Below the pieces are notes generated by a model. It saw only the letters and a program-made list of their open reading frames with translations. It was not told where the DNA came from and searched no databases. A stretch of DNA of 64,000 bases. It comes from an uncultured Bacteroidales bacterium (GTDB lineage Bacteria; Bacteroidota; Bacteroidia; Bacteroidales; UBA932). The position numbers and the translations under genes were made by a program. The stretch lies in NCBI GenBank assembly GCA_900316245.1, contig ONCE01000004.1:34194-98193 (forward strand), given 5' to 3'. Positions 25,802-31,023 of this stretch are shown here, piece after piece. Every line of letters begins with the position of its first letter. Position 1 is the stretch's first letter.

Positions 25802-25934
25802 GCCGCGTTTGCACAAAATCTGGCCCTGGTGCATTCTAGCTGCAAACGCGGCTCGTTTTTTGGCCGAAAAGCCTGTTTTAGTCGCCACGTTTGCACAAAA
25901 TCTGGCCCTGGTGCGTTCTTGCTGCAAACGCGGC
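25802..25934. repeat. REP-like dimer A: two 51-bp palindromic units with 31-bp spacer
   Basis: Unit A1 (25802-25852) begins GCCGCGTTTGCA and ends with its exact reverse complement TGCAAACGCGGC, so it folds into a 12-bp GC-rich stem. Unit A2 (25884-25934) begins GCCACGTTTGCA and ends the same way. The interiors are nearly identical (CAAAATCTGGCCCTGGTGC, then variable). They are in the same orientation, separated by a 31-bp spacer (25853-25883). The dimer lies between the convergent genes secDF and dnaE, a typical place for REP/BIME elements. A 13-bp extension (CCGGTCCGCTCCG, 25789-25801) before A1 recurs in copy B. Confidence 0.85.
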
Positions 25935-25987
25935 AAGGGTAGGGGGGGGCGTGGCGGGCCGAAAGGGAGGCGCTTTCCGTAAAGAGG

Positions 25988-28900
25988 CTACTTGCGGACG
26001 ACCTCGTACTTGTCTACGCCTATGCGGCGGAGATCCTGAAGGAACTCGGAGGTGACCGCTACCTGGAACTTCTTGGAGTAGAACTGGATGCGGTAGCGGG
26101 TGCCGGGATCAAAGAGGAACAAGGTAAGCGGAATGCTGCCCTTGTGCTTCTTGATCACCTGCAGCAGGTCTTTGCGGAACTGCTGGGTGAGCATGGGCGT
26201 GGTGATATCCATACTGAACCCGGAGAGGATATCGTCAGATATATTGCCGAGCAGCGTCACCTTACGCAATTTAAAGGCGTAGGGCGACGTTTTACCCTGC
26301 GCACGTTCCTCGGGCTTGACGAAGAACTTTTCTTCCACCATACCCTCTAAAAACAGCGTTGCGCGGGGTGTCATATATTGCATGAAGGTTTCGTGCTCCT
26401 TACCGAAGAGCGTGAGCTCGTAGGAGCCGCTGTAATCTTCCAAAATGGTGCGGGAGTAGGGCTTGCCCGTCTTGGTGGTCAGCTGCTTGAAATCCGTCAC
26501 TATGCCGGCCGCATAGACCTTGGTGGGGGTCTTCTTGGTTTCGCAGTCTGCCACGAAGACGCCCATATCGGCCATCTTGCAGGTGCAGAAGTTCTCCATC
26601 TCAAAGCGGTAGCGGTCCAGCGGATGGGAACTCAGGTACATACCTACCAGCTCCTTTTCCTTCTGGAGCATATCCATAATGTCCATCTCGCCCTCGTTGT
26701 CGGGCAGGGCGGGGCGCTCGGGCTTCATCTCTTCCATATCTCCGAACAGGGAAACGCCGCCGGAGAGGGTGTCTTCCTTGAAGAGTTCTCCGTAGCGGAC
26801 CAGCTGGTCTATGAAGAGGTCTCCGCCGCGGCCGGGCTGGAAGTACATGCTGCGCTTGTGGCCCAGGCTGTCCAGGGCGCCGGAATAGACCAGGTTCTCA
26901 AAGCTCTTGCGGTTCACACTGCCGGCCATACGCTCCACGAAGTCGTAGACGTCCGTGAAGAGGCCGTGCTCTTCCCTTTCGGCCATAATGGCTTCCACTA
27001 CGTTGGCGCCGAAGCCCTTGATGGACCCCAGGGCAAAACGGACGTTGCCTTCCTTGTTGACGGTGAAGTGGCCGGCACTCTCATTGACATCGGGGCTTAA
27101 CACCTTGATGCCGTGGCTCTTGCAGTCGTCCATAATCTTGATGATTTCTTCCATGCTCTTGGCGCAGTCCAGGCAGGAAGCGAAGAATTCGGACGGATAG
27201 TGGCACTTGAGCCAGCCGGTCTGGTAACTCACCCAGGCGTAGCAGGTGGCGTGGGACTTGTTGAAGGCATACTGGGCAAACTTCTCCCAGTCTTTCCAGA
27301 TCTTGTCCAGGACTTTCTCGGGGTGGCCGTTGGCCTGGCCGCCGGACATAAACTTGTCCTTGAGGGAGTTCAGGATGTCGATCTGTTTCTTACCCATAGC
27401 CTTGCGGAGCTTGTCAGCTTCACCCTTGGTGAATCCGGCCAGCTTCTGGGACAGAAGCATCACCTGCTCCTGGTAAACCGTGACGCCGTAGGTGTCCTGC
27501 AGGTATTCCTCCATTTCGGGGAGGTCGTATTCTATGGCTTGTTCACCCTGCTTGCGGGCCACGAAGTCCGGGATATAGTCCATAGGACCGGGCCGATAGA
27601 GGGCGTTCATAGCAATGAGGTCTTCGAAACGCTCCGGGCGCAGTTTCTGCAGCCAGGTTTTCATTCCTTCCGATTCAAACTGGAACACGGAAGTGGTATC
27701 TCCGCGGCCGTAGAGCTCCAGGGTGGGCTTGTCGTCAATGGGGATGGCCTCGATGTCTATGTCTTCCCCGTGGTGCTCCTTGATGAGGTTGAGGCAGTTG
27801 TGGATGATCTGGAGGGTAATGAGGCCCAGGAAGTCCATCTTGAGCATACCCACGTCCTCGATGTAGTGGCCGTCGTACTGCGACGTGCGCACATCCAGGC
27901 CCGTTTCCTTATCCTTGGACAGGCAGATGGGCAGGTAATCCGTCAGGTCTCCGCGGCCAATGATGGTGGCGCAGGCGTGCATACCCACCTGGCGGACGCA
28001 GCCTTCCAGGGCCTGGGCATATTTGAGCACCTCCTTGTTGATTTCCGGGCCGTTCTTGAGTTCTTCGATGAACTCCGGAACCAGGCGGTAGCAGTTCTTG
28101 AGGTTGATCTTGACGTCCACGTCCTCCATACCTTTCTGGAAGGTCTTCATTACGCCATCCACTTCCTTCTCTATGACCTTGAAGCCGGGCTTCAGTTCGT
28201 CCAGTTTGGGGTTGTAGGGGTATTCTTTTTCCTTTTTCTCGGAAAGGCGGTCCGGGACCATCTTGGTGAGGCGGTTGCTCTCGTCTATGGAGACGTGGCT
28301 GATGCGGGCCACGTCCTTGATGGCGCTCTTGGCGGCCATGGTGCCGAAGGTGATCACGCGGGACACGTGGCTGGCGCCGTACTTTTTCTCTACGTAGTCG
28401 TGGGCCTTGGTCAGGTCTTCGAAGTCTACGTCAATATCCGGCATGGAGATACGGTCCGGATTGAGGAAACGCTCGAACAGGAGCTGGTACTTGATGGGGT
28501 CCAGGTTGGTGATCCTGAGGCAGTAGGCCACCACGGAACCTGCGGCGGAACCACGGCCCGGGCCCACCATGCTGCCCATCGCGCGCGAGGCGGCAATGTA
28601 GTCCTGCACGATGAGGAAATAGTCCGGGAAGCCCATACGGCAGATGGTCTTGAGCTCAAAGTCTATGCGCTCATCCTGCTCCGGCGTGAGGGTTTCCCCG
28701 TAACGCTGGTGGGCGCCCTGGTAGGTGAGGTGGCAAAGGTAGGCCACCGAATGGCAGAAGCCGTCTCCGCGGTAGGTGCCGTGCTTGTCGCATCGGCCCG
28801 CATCTATGATGTCCTTGTACTGCTCCAGATACTTGTCAATCTGGGCCATGAAGGCCGGATCAATCTCGTAAACCGGCAGCACAGGGTCTCTGTCTATGGA

Positions 28901-29737
28901 ATACTCCTCTATCTTGGAGGCCACTTCCAGGGTGTTTTCCAGGCACTCCGGGTGGTCCGGGAACAGTTCCCGCATCTCTTCCTCGCTCTTGAGGTACTCC
29001 TGCTGGGTGTAGCGCAGGCGGTCCGGGTCGTCAATATACGCGTTGGTGGTGAGGCAGACGAGGCGGTCGTGCACCGGGCCGTCTTCCTTGCGAACAAAGT
29101 GGGCGTCGTTGGTGGCAATTACCTTCACGCCGTACTTTTCGGCCAGCTTGAAAATCTCTCCGGTGTAGTAGCACTGGTCCTCGTAGAGCTGGTTGTCCAG
29201 GCCCGGGACCTCCGTCTTGTGCTTCATCACCTCCAGGTAGTAGTCCTCCCCAAAGACACGCTTGTGCCAGAGGATGGCTTTCTCCACGGCCTCGGCGTTA
29301 TGTGCCATGATGGCGCGCGGCACCTCTCCCGCCATACAGGCCGATGAGCAGATGAGCCCCTCGTGGTACTTCTCCACAACCTCGTGGCTCACGCGCGGGC
29401 GGTAGTACATACCGTTGATGTGGGCTTCCGACACAATCTTGACCAGATTGAGGTAGCCCGTATAGTTCTTGGCCAGCAGAATGAGGTGGTAGTAGCCTTT
29501 CTCCTTGACCCGGTGATCCCCCTTGGACACATAGATCTCACAGCCTATGATGGGCTTCACCGAAGGATGCTTTTTGGCATACTTGAAGAACTCCTTCACG
29601 CCGTACATATTACCGTGGTCGGTGATGGCCAGGGCAGGCATGCCCAGCTCTTCGGCCCGGTTGAAGAGGTTTTCGATGGACGACTGTCCATCCAGGATGG
29701 AGTACTGCGTATGGACGTGAAGGTGAACGAAACTCAT
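25988..29737 (-). CDS. dnaE: DNA polymerase III alpha subunit (replicative polymerase)
   Basis: 1249-residue catalytic subunit of the replicative polymerase. The N-terminal PHP domain begins with FVHLHVHTQYSILDG. The palm has the catalytic pair in PDIDVDFED (near residue 432). Fingers and thumb segments follow, with DTTSVFQFESEGMK and YRPGPMDYIPDF. The helix-hairpin-helix and OB-fold are at the C terminus (KVYAAGIVTDFKQL). The ATG at 29737 opens the PHP motif directly, and the box TATCTTTG ends six bases upstream. It is flanked on both sides by copies of the 51-bp REP-like repeat. Confidence 0.97.
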   Translation of the reverse strand: MSFVHLHVHTQYSILDGQSSIENLFNRAEELGMPALAITDHGNMYGVKEFFKYAKKHPSVKPIIGCEIYVSKGDHRVKEKGYYHLILLAKNYTGYLNLVKIVSEAHINGMYYRPRVSHEVVEKYHEGLICSSACMAGEVPRAIMAHNAEAVEKAILWHKRVFGEDYYLEVMKHKTEVPGLDNQLYEDQCYYTGEIFKLAEKYGVKVIATNDAHFVRKEDGPVHDRLVCLTTNAYIDDPDRLRYTQQEYLKSEEEMRELFPDHPECLENTLEVASKIEEYSIDRDPVLPVYEIDPAFMAQIDKYLEQYKDIIDAGRCDKHGTYRGDGFCHSVAYLCHLTYQGAHQRYGETLTPEQDERIDFELKTICRMGFPDYFLIVQDYIAASRAMGSMVGPGRGSAAGSVVAYCLRITNLDPIKYQLLFERFLNPDRISMPDIDVDFEDLTKAHDYVEKKYGASHVSRVITFGTMAAKSAIKDVARISHVSIDESNRLTKMVPDRLSEKKEKEYPYNPKLDELKPGFKVIEKEVDGVMKTFQKGMEDVDVKINLKNCYRLVPEFIEELKNGPEINKEVLKYAQALEGCVRQVGMHACATIIGRGDLTDYLPICLSKDKETGLDVRTSQYDGHYIEDVGMLKMDFLGLITLQIIHNCLNLIKEHHGEDIDIEAIPIDDKPTLELYGRGDTTSVFQFESEGMKTWLQKLRPERFEDLIAMNALYRPGPMDYIPDFVARKQGEQAIEYDLPEMEEYLQDTYGVTVYQEQVMLLSQKLAGFTKGEADKLRKAMGKKQIDILNSLKDKFMSGGQANGHPEKVLDKIWKDWEKFAQYAFNKSHATCYAWVSYQTGWLKCHYPSEFFASCLDCAKSMEEIIKIMDDCKSHGIKVLSPDVNESAGHFTVNKEGNVRFALGSIKGFGANVVEAIMAEREEHGLFTDVYDFVERMAGSVNRKSFENLVYSGALDSLGHKRSMYFQPGRGGDLFIDQLVRYGELFKEDTLSGGVSLFGDMEEMKPERPALPDNEGEMDIMDMLQKEKELVGMYLSSHPLDRYRFEMENFCTCKMADMGVFVADCETKKTPTKVYAAGIVTDFKQLTTKTGKPYSRTILEDYSGSYELTLFGKEHETFMQYMTPRATLFLEGMVEEKFFVKPEERAQGKTSPYAFKLRKVTLLGNISDDILSGFSMDITTPMLTQQFRKDLLQVIKKHKGSIPLTLFLFDPGTRYRIQFYSKKFQVAVTSEFLQDLRRIGVDKYEVVRK

Positions 29738-29743
29738 AGATGA

Positions 29744-29751
29744 CAAAGATA
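29744..29751 (-). promoter_or_regulatory. -7 box TATCTTTG of dnaE
   Basis: Exact TAnnTTTG match ending six bases before the dnaE ATG, again predicting a leaderless or near-leaderless message. Confidence 0.6.
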
Positions 29752-29805
29752 CGATTTCTCCCCCGTTTTTGCGCAAAAAAGTTATCAACATTGCGCCCGC
29801 TTCCA

Positions 29806-29869
29806 GCCGCGTTTGCACGCAGAATGCACCAGGGCCAGATTTTGTGCAAACGCGGCCGGAGCGGACCGG
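29806..29869. repeat. REP-like unit B (single copy, inverted relative to A)
   Basis: Core 29806-29856 with perfect 12-bp arms GCCGCGTTTGCA/TGCAAACGCGGC. Read in reverse it matches unit A1 at 48 of 51 positions. The match extends over the 13-bp flank (29857-29869) that also precedes A1. It lies 13-14 bases beyond the stop codon of the RAYT gene, so it sits at the downstream edge of the transposase gene. Confidence 0.85.
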
Positions 29870-29882
29870 AAACCAGCAGGGA

Positions 29883-30797
29883 CTAGTATCCCAGGCAGCG
29901 GCGAATCTGGTGATTGGGGAGGCGGAATTCGGCCTGGAGCTGGCGGGCAAGGCGCTGGCGCTGGCTATCCGAAAGCAGATAGACGGAGCGGACGCCAAAA
30001 GAGGGCAACAGATCATGGTCGATGAGGCGGCAAACATCCATATCCTGTAAGCGGTTGGGGTTGAAGTTGCGTCCGTGCTCGTTGTTCAGCATCTGGGCTA
30101 TGGATTTTTCATCGGCCCCTTCGATCATGGACAGGGTGACGGGCTGGCCGGTATTGTCCTTCTGCTGGTCTTCTTTCCAGCTTTCGTCCGTCAGCCGGTT
30201 CATCTGATATAGATAGTTTCTGGCCGAACCGTAGTACTGCTCGGCTCGTCGAAGCTCCATAAAACTCTTGCGAAGGAAAACGCCTGATTCATCCATTTGC
30301 CAATGGTCCGGGAACGCTGAATAGCGGGGCAGATAGGCCGCCATATCGGCCCGGGAAAAAGGCCGGGACCTCTCAGAAGAGAGGCCGATCTCTTTCGCAA
30401 ACAGCTCACGTACAGAACAATAGGCGTATCCCAATGCCGTGGGAGCCGCTCCGTGATGAAGCCCGTTCCTCAGGACGTAAGACAGCGCCACCATCTGGTG
30501 ATTGAAACCGTCGATCTTTTGTGAGAAAGTGTACTTCTGCCCCATCCTCCCCTTCCGGTCATACTTATGGTTGAAGTATTTGGTATAGGACATCCTTAGC
30601 GCAGAGGCAAAGAGCATCGGGTCCTCGGCAAACACAACGGAGTGAAAGTGGGTGGACATTTCTGCGTCGGCCAGAATCTCAGCATCAGATACAAAGGCCC
30701 GCAGCGCCATCAGGTTAACAAAGACTCCGTGATCTTCCTCATCCCGGAACATCACCTCGTCGTGCGATGTAAAGCAGATATGATATGATTCCTTCAT
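29883..30797 (-). CDS. REP-associated tyrosine transposase-like protein (RAYT, Y1/HUH family)
   Basis: 304-residue single-strand nuclease of the Y1 transposase superfamily. The metal-binding HUH motif is H50-F-H52 (in MSTHFHSVVF) and the candidate catalytic tyrosine is Y107 (in ALSYVLRNGLHHG), spaced as in RAYT/TnpA-REP proteins. A C-terminal extension of about 130 residues ends in a helical segment (SDSQRQRLARQLQAEFRLPN) that may contact DNA. The ATG at 30797 is chosen over a TTG nine bases earlier. It is single-copy here, with no inverted ends of an ordinary IS. Instead it is bracketed by 51-bp palindromic repeats, the context expected of a domesticated RAYT that acts on REP elements. Only the family assignment rests on motifs; the activity is inferred. 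Confidence 0.85.
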   Translation of the reverse strand: MKESYHICFTSHDEVMFRDEEDHGVFVNLMALRAFVSDAEILADAEMSTHFHSVVFAEDPMLFASALRMSYTKYFNHKYDRKGRMGQKYTFSQKIDGFNHQMVALSYVLRNGLHHGAAPTALGYAYCSVRELFAKEIGLSSERSRPFSRADMAAYLPRYSAFPDHWQMDESGVFLRKSFMELRRAEQYYGSARNYLYQMNRLTDESWKEDQQKDNTGQPVTLSMIEGADEKSIAQMLNNEHGRNFNPNRLQDMDVCRLIDHDLLPSFGVRSVYLLSDSQRQRLARQLQAEFRLPNHQIRRCLGY

Positions 30798-30835
30798 GCC
30801 CACCAAGGTAAGCAGGCCAATCCGGAATTCCTACA

Positions 30836-30887
30836 ATCGTAAGAAAAGTTGTGTTGTTTCAGGCGGTATTTGTGTGTTTCTTACGAT
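30836..30887. repeat. 11-bp inverted repeat upstream of the RAYT gene
   Basis: ATCGTAAGAAA (30836-30846) and its perfect reverse complement (30877-30887) flank 30 bases, lying between the RAYT start codon and repeat C. It may be an operator, a leader hairpin or the inner boundary of the mobile unit. It is not a copy of the 51-bp repeat. Confidence 0.5.
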
Positions 30888-30890
30888 GGC

Positions 30891-31023
30891 GCCGCGTTTG
30901 CACGTAGAATGCACCAAAGGCAGTTTTTGTGCAAACGTGGCGACTAAAACAGGCTTTTCGGCCAAAAAACGAGCCGCGTTTGCAGCTAGAACGCACAGAA
31001 GGCAGATTCTTTGCAAACGCGGC
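30891..31023. repeat. REP-like dimer C, inverted copy of dimer A
   Basis: Units C1 (30891-30941) and C2 (30973-31023) are 51 bp each with 12-bp arms; C2's arms are perfect, and C1 has one mismatch (GCCGCG against CGTGGC). The spacer (30942-30972) is the exact reverse complement of the 31-bp spacer in dimer A, and the total length is the same 133 bp. Interior bases differ from A at several positions (for example CTGCCTT for CTGGCCC). The dimer ends 29 bases before the stop of the DUF4923 gene, upstream of the RAYT gene. Confidence 0.85.

Follow-up and report, generated by a model that had tools for sequence, protein, structure and literature searches.

A probable REPIN/RAYT-like system in an uncultured Bacteroidales bacterium: a Y1/HUH transposase gene and its flanking 51-bp palindromes

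The choice of hairpins by the tyrosine transposases associated with repetitive extragenic palindromic sequences (RAYTs and REPs, respectively) is understood for a few Proteobacterial cases, all with a GTAG foot. The stretch of DNA analysed here (the window: 64,000 nucleotides from an uncultured Bacteroidales bacterium, assembly GCA_900316245.1, contig ONCE01000004.1, positions 34,194 to 98,193) contains a gene for a Y1/HUH protein among five 51-bp palindromes, and raises the question of whether gene and palindromes form a system of this kind or whether the palindromes are the ends of an insertion sequence, regulatory hairpins or sites of inversion. We favour a REPIN/RAYT-like (REPtron-like) system that belongs to a divergent subfamily in the Bacteroidales and assign this reading a probability of roughly 0.7. 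As judged from sequence comparison and structure prediction, it is supported by the predicted fold and invariant catalytic residues of the protein, by palindromes that flank the gene and diverge together with it, by the dispersal of these palindromes in relatives and by an indel that is bounded by palindromes.

Repeat comparison, arm counts and folding define a left dimer on the plus strand, which consists of palindrome 1 (25802..25852), a 31-bp linker (25853..25883) and palindrome 2 (25884..25934, with a single arm base altered). Palindrome 3 (29806..29856, minus strand) is a single copy, inverted with respect to the left dimer and directly 3' of the transposase gene, and palindromes 4 (30891..30941) and 5 (30973..31023) make up a right dimer on the minus strand. 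Both dimers (25802/25884 and 30891/30973) have a period of 82 bp, and they are inverted copies of one another with 88% complementarity. Eight arms out of ten match GCCGCGTTTGCA or its complement without a mismatch, and each of the remaining two is one base off. Arm-like 12-mers with up to two mismatches occur 17 times in the window against 6.9 expected, a count reached by 0 of 100 shuffles; the seven that lie outside the units are isolated on inspection, and pairing is therefore confined to the ten arms of the five units. A first-pass annotation of the sequence had described five 51-bp units in 5.2 kb with 12-bp arms, long palindromes arranged as dimers and no unit elsewhere in the window, all of which is confirmed; two arms deviate and one unit is a single copy beside the two dimers.

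The 109 distinct units of the arm clade to which the window belongs have arms of the form GCC[GA]CGTT.., linkers of 31 bp that recur in dimers and arrays, and less conserved, asymmetric spacers of 27-28 nt with AAATCGGCC on one side. By itself an arm has almost no tendency to fold (0 to -0.6 kcal/mol); DNA folding z scores relative to shuffles were -3.3, -3.2 and -4.4 for single window units, and -2.1 and -5.1 for the left and right dimers. An array stretch at one homolog locus (L103) folded no better than its shuffles (z 0.1). A REPIN is described in part of PMC8049555 as two inverted arms with a variable spacer; having 12-nt inverted arms, a short variable spacer and the capacity to fold into a hairpin, one 51-bp unit corresponds to a REPIN and not to a single REP.

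The transposase gene (29883..30797, minus strand) encodes 304 amino acids (aa) if the start is taken at a conserved MKESYH; the mechanical open reading frame (ORF) begins three codons earlier with TTG. The H50-x-H52 and Y107 on which the first-pass annotation had based its Y1/HUH assignment are, together with H114 and H115, invariant in 70 of 70 aligned homologs that were found without using that motif. This alignment was used instead of another (A3), in which the invariance of Y107, R110, N111, H114 and H115 is partly by construction because the underlying search used the motif. An AlphaFold2 model from a 73-row alignment (pLDDT 95.7, pTM 0.93) has the order b1-aA-b2-b3(HxH)-aB-b4-aC(Y107), with HUH on a strand and the tyrosine on a following helix as in the Y1/HUH superfamily, and continues from about residue 120 in an all-alpha C-terminal part of about 185 residues. 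The best Foldseek match of the model in the PDB is 4er8, the E. coli RAYT with a REP hairpin (E 1.1e-4), followed by the TnpA proteins of IS608 and ISDra2, and it suggests that the protein is a remote RAYT. By sequence, the window protein gave nothing convincing against Pfam, NCBIfam, PHROGs and PDB (one unrelated match at E 0.63), the family profile had 0 matches among PDB sequences, and Pfam Y1_Tnp PF01797 matched 4 of 37 homologs (best 5.5e-4) and did not match the window protein at E<=1; family membership therefore rests on the predicted structure and the homologs. The tyrosine motif of the window protein is YVLRNGLHH (Y-x-x-R-N-G-x-H-H). In the 70 homologs, the residue at Tyr+4 is mostly N (63, with Q in the other 7), and Tyr+5 is occupied by G (36), A (18), P (11), S (3), V (1) or C (1); the family thus overlaps in this motif with both class 2 (Y---NP) and subclass 1.2 (Y---Q--HH) as given in part of PMC6006769.

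Homologs at E<=1e-20 were present in 65 of 200 congeneric genomes (96 matches in all), and among 393 genomes sampled from 206 genera of the order, matches at 1e-15 occurred only in this genus. A contig scan detected 137 relatives, and the 80 listed among them are titled Bacteroidales, Bacteroidia, Bacteroidaceae or Candidatus Colenecus caballi, which bears out the Bacteroidales home proposed in the annotation; many titles among these 80 name ruminant or horse gut samples. We fetched the best 71 of the 96 homolog loci and treated a palindrome as cognate if it shares an 8-mer of its arm with another palindrome of the same locus. At 55 of 71 loci the gene has a cognate palindrome beside it, as compared to 62 of 543 control placements within the same loci, and at 47 of 71 it has them on both sides, as compared to 21 of 543; the noticeable background of the wider test (62/543) is due in part to lone family palindromes in the control stretches. 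When the distance was limited to 350 bp, 27 of 64 testable loci had matching palindromes on both sides, whereas none of 916 control placements did, and any repeated palindrome was present at 40 of 64 loci and 18 of 916 placements; this test has no both-side background, yet it overlooks palindromes farther away. As expected of a RAYT, the gene is thus flanked by a palindrome family of its own. Arm similarity also tracks protein identity (Mantel r 0.475, 52 loci, 0 of 2000 permutations as high), with the arms of homologs ranging from identical to unrelated (GCCGCGTTTGCA, GCCGCGTTGACA, GCCGCGATTGCA, GCCGCCTTGACA, AAGAGAAATCCAGCCA and GACAGGTGTCCA, and further GGAGGATTCC, GCCGGATATCCA, ACGCACTTCCAC, GATGTAGTACAG and others). 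Flanking and co-divergence together uphold the earlier proposal that the protein has its own palindrome family.

These results bear on the possibility that the palindromes have a regulatory role, as bidirectional terminators or other hairpins, and lie near the gene by chance. The single hairpins are stable and the left dimer sits between the convergent genes secDF and dnaE, as would suit a terminator, but by eye secDF is already followed by a terminator-like hairpin of its own, complete with a T run. Furthermore, chance proximity would not account for arms that vary along with the transposase sequence or for the complete lack of matching palindromes on both sides within 350 bp in the 916 controls, and the spacers of the window arm clade are as long as ~27 nt. 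We consider this explanation to have hardly any probability.

Dispersal of the palindromes was examined with a pattern for the window arm clade. Genomes with a close homolog (n=17) had 0-59 matches (mean 13.0, median 9), the 48 genomes with only other homologs had 0-6 (mean 0.77), and the 135 genomes without a homolog had 0-7 (mean 0.60, median 0), the difference between close-homolog and no-homolog genomes being significant (Mann-Whitney p 1.2e-11). As a reversed control pattern gave 0-3 matches per genome and chance matches occur in coding DNA, small counts are uninformative; draft bins may also collapse repeats, which is the main weakness of the copy counts. Copies in one congener (G038) are arranged in arrays, with up to 13 per cluster among the clusters read. 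At 20 fetched dispersed sites, 17 of 22 clusters and 41 of 51 units are not crossed by a long ORF. A greedy-ORF test of intergenic location, in which 19 of 51 units fell outside ORFs, was discarded as it was misled by open frames running through the repeat arrays.

The window's own draft genome (G000; 2.24 Mb in 35 contigs, 92.8% complete) has such palindromes only beside two genes of the subfamily and in a lone dimer on C15. A looser arm pattern produced 12 matches, and 0 when read backwards: five are in the window, four at a paralog on C16 and one on C15, which represents a lone dimer since it has a neighbour with one mismatch, and two (C13 and C27) have poorly pairing arms and look like chance. 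The C16 paralog is 64% identical to the window protein, and the block that contains it is flanked on both sides by its own dimers, whose arms (GCC[GA]CGTTGAC/GTCAACGCGGC) differ from those of the window. Four distant Y1 relatives with 22-26% identity (C22:30366, C21:174315, C35:17073 and C15:48516) had no repeated palindromes in a quick look. The annotation had named many intergenic copies genome-wide with a single RAYT gene as support and had declared in advance that copies only beside the gene would not be supportive. The exact 51-bp family is indeed confined to 5.2 kb round the gene, and the genome contains two genes of this subfamily plus the four distant relatives. Dispersed copies were instead found in congeners that have the cognate gene and palindromes co-diverging with it. 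Thus, the REP-RAYT reading of the annotation is supported as regards a RAYT-like fold, own palindromes, long units in dimers and the lack of a GTRG foot, and is not borne out in this genome as regards copies away from the gene and a single RAYT.

Comparison of sites provided evidence on gain or loss of the element. In G028, the window site has the same gene order without palindromes and without the transposase, and the distance from the dnaE start to the DUF4923 match is 71 bp as compared to about 1.3 kb. At a second site, between ftsY and asnA, locus L135 has the arrangement P1-31-P2, RAYT, P3-31-P4 (palindromes P1 to P4), and genome G005 has a solo palindrome that combines the P1 body with the right arm end/flank of P4. 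The two differ by a clean 1,372 bp, with alignments of flank plus palindrome that are 98.6% and 96.2% identical; a diverged solo palindrome is present at ftsY-asnA in G038. Either the element was lost between palindromes, through recombination or excision, or it was inserted into one palindrome.

A 1.37-kb indel of this type would also be produced by an autonomous insertion sequence of the IS200/IS605 kind, whose ends would be the palindromes and whose decayed or deleted copies would be the lone ones. Such an origin accords with the position of palindromes directly at either end of the gene, with the resemblance in fold to IS608 TnpA and with the presence of the element, with and without cargo, at the one ftsY-asnA site. 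However, near-identical copies are lacking (the best own-genome paralog being the 64% one), palindromes form clusters of up to 13 units and occupy sites without a matched gene copy, and the protein has a long C-terminal part. The class 1 motif Y---Q, which occurs in 7 of 70 homologs, is absent from the window protein with its N at Tyr+4, and hence the window gene shows neither this motif nor the near-identical multiple copies of class 1.1. We regard an insertion sequence of this kind as unlikely.

According to the REPIN/RAYT-like reading, the 304-aa protein would be a single-strand-DNA Y1/HUH endonuclease with an N-terminal domain of RAYT/IS200 fold. A unit of 12-nt arm, ~27-nt variable spacer and inverted arm would fold into a hairpin in single-stranded DNA, most likely in the lagging-strand template, and the protein would recognize its cognate hairpin, with Y107 nicking beside it and joining the end to another single-stranded site. 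Hairpins would thereby multiply by the gene and, in some species, across the genome, and now and then the gene itself may move or be lost along with a flanking palindrome. We infer hairpin binding, the single-strand route and a protein-made indel, as opposed to one made by repeat recombination; the putative nicking chemistry is deduced from the fold and from findings reported for E. coli TnpA_REP in part of PMC8266576.

Several observations weigh against this reading. The GTRG foot of known REPs is not shared, as the annotation had implied: GT[AG]G stands at the outer foot of 0 of 109 distinct palindromes (5.7 expected by chance) and at the loop side of 4 of 109. The Y---NG of the window protein misses by one residue the Y---NP motif that is present in 11 of 70 homologs. 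No cognate palindrome was found at 16 of 71 loci, nine of which have >2 kb on both sides, and an 8-nt arm word is shared by 44 of 138 pairs of homologs that are >60% identical, from which it follows that arms change fast. All five copies with window arms in the own draft genome are beside the gene, with no further copy in its 2.24 Mb. The 80% complete assembly of G184 has six clear palindromes and no cognate gene detected, so that the repeat occurs in at least one genome without a detected gene, which bears on the annotation's second ground for refutation. Finally, the ftsY-asnA indel is explicable by recombination of direct repeats.

Some elements of this family contain additional genes. Among 80 named loci, restriction-modification genes lie beside the transposase in six and a remnant in one, and in several species these genes separate the transposase gene from a flanking palindrome dimer. 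At the ftsY-asnA site of G019, palindrome dimers enclose the RAYT together with Eco57I/MmeI-type methylases and a T5orf172-ResIII helicase; in G000 the same block lies there between palindrome dimers in opposite orientation. In G122, G126 and G028, an EcoRI-type methylase with a GmrSD/HNH protein takes up the same divergent position. At ftsY-asnA and elsewhere, the same transposase lineage can be bare, or associated with an Eco57I/MmeI-type system, an EcoRI-methylase/GmrSD-HNH pair or a remnant, with either orientation of the block. Cargo is the exception, as the nearest upstream cognate palindrome is mostly close to the gene (<=250 bp in 34 of 47 loci, >700 bp in 9 of 47). That the palindrome-bounded Y1/HUH elements of this genus are carriers of restriction-modification systems is a tentative proposal, and we incline to doubt it. 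If true, an enzyme of REPIN/RAYT type would be a vehicle that exchanges anti-phage genes at fixed chromosomal sites via single-strand transposition, and the link would tie domesticated single-strand transposases to defence-gene turnover.

Some minor observations concern this cargo. The T5orf172-ResIII helicase in the cargo block of the G000 paralog (C16, ~74638-77255) is matched as two overlapping pieces in different frames, which reflects either a frameshift or a fault of the assembly. Methylase genes of two unrelated restriction-modification types are preceded by a conserved non-coding stretch (L012 6416-6692; L095 6676-6900); a search of two cargo loci against Rfam identified a tRNA only, with no match for this stretch. 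We rejected the stretch as a part of the transposase since it is matched in G042, G057, G011 and G017 without an adjoining transposase match.

The orientation of the cargo block, and of the host gene dnaE, raises a further alternative, namely that recombination at the inverted dimers flips the enclosed segment (dnaE, or the restriction-modification block at ftsY-asnA), in which case they would form a switch rather than a transposition system. The dnaE gene (DNA polymerase III alpha; 25988..29737, minus strand) is situated within the interval 25802-31023 and is bracketed by palindromes, although it lies outside the element proper. Its orientation is as in the window in G028, G054, G038, G005 and G077 and opposite in G122, G019, G051 and G057 (window 25988-29737; L243-L250, L095). 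Similarly, the asnA gene by the element is inverted in G000 (C16) relative to G019 (C27), G005 and G038. A switch would agree with the 88% likeness of the inverted left and right dimers, with the opposite dnaE of G122 and with the opposite cargo-RAYT blocks of G000 and G019. In contrast, G019, G051 and G057 have an inverted dnaE without a transposase matched at the site, for which reason we did not adopt an invertible dnaE switch as the main explanation; asnA is flipped as well with no second dimer matched beyond it; and an upstream cognate palindrome within 250 bp, as in 34 of 47 loci, leaves no room for a flipped gene. We therefore deem inversion very improbable.

Compared to the REPIN/RAYT systems (TnpA_REP, REPtrons) of E. 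coli, Pseudomonas and Stenotrophomonas, the family is alike in its Y1/HUH fold with invariant HxH and Tyr, in having its own flanking hairpin repeats with inverted arms, variable spacers and tandem units, and in dispersal in some relatives, apparent cognate specificity, low gene copy number and the Y---NP of some homologs. Unlike them, it has no GT[AG]G foot, its 12-nt arms are not hairpins themselves, the window protein combines the Y-x-x-R-N-G-x-H-H motif with 304 aa and a long all-alpha C-terminal part, and many genomes contain few or no dispersed copies. The missing foot and the Y---NG of the window therefore set it apart from canonical REP/RAYT systems. TIRtrons (TIRYT; Di Nocera et al. 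2013, PMC3733652) share a Y1 transposase, long proteins and inverted repeats without GTAG, some of which are self-complementary and in dimers or clusters; in the part of that paper considered here, GGGGWSAS characterizes some cases and other TIRs are without the motif, the species named belong to other phyla, and co-divergence and cargo are not described. GGGGWSAS was found in 0 of 147 family palindromes with 20-nt flanks. TnpA_Y1 subclass 2.6 (Quentin et al. 2018, PMC6006769, in part) is alike in being mostly from Bacteroidetes, with atypical flanking structures without GT[AG]G and copies elsewhere in the genome, but has a median of 179 aa and the motif YIH[QN]NP in contrast to the 304 aa and YVLRNGLHH of the window protein. 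Subclass 1.2, in the same portion of that source, has two His at Tyr+7/+8 (YIKNQKEHH, against YVLRNGLHH, with HH in 70/70 homologs), Bacteroidetes hosts and a low copy number; it differs in its ~148 aa, its Q at Tyr+4 (N in 63/70 and Q in 7/70 of our family) and a REP entry of 'no', as against the flanking palindromes seen here. In its habit the family most resembles TIRtrons and subclass 2.6, and its Tyr-HH motif is similar to that of subclass 1.2. Our search of the open literature found no account of this Bacteroidales family, nor of restriction-modification cargo with RAYTs.

In this footless family, proteins and palindromes have diverged in parallel in dozens of pairs, with arms from identical to unrelated, and such a natural series of pairs makes the recognition code directly testable by pair swapping. 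The solo palindrome and the full element at ftsY-asnA likewise provide a defined substrate and product for asking whether enzymes of this family still move DNA.

The surroundings and length of the transposase gene show further variation. Immediately upstream of the start in the window is an inverted repeat, CAATCGTAAGAAA / TTTCTTACGATGG (30834..30889, no strand assigned), which may be operator-like in view of its position, and some homologs also have inverted repeats upstream of the gene. At two loci, small ORFs that appear by eye to be helix-turn-helix-like run into the transposase start, as if co-translated (L113, -808 to 0 from the gene start; L045, -377 to -3). A longer form of the protein (match 359-376 aa) is present at L195, L198, L199, L202, L203, L206 and L207, in bins titled Bacteroidaceae or Bacteroidales.

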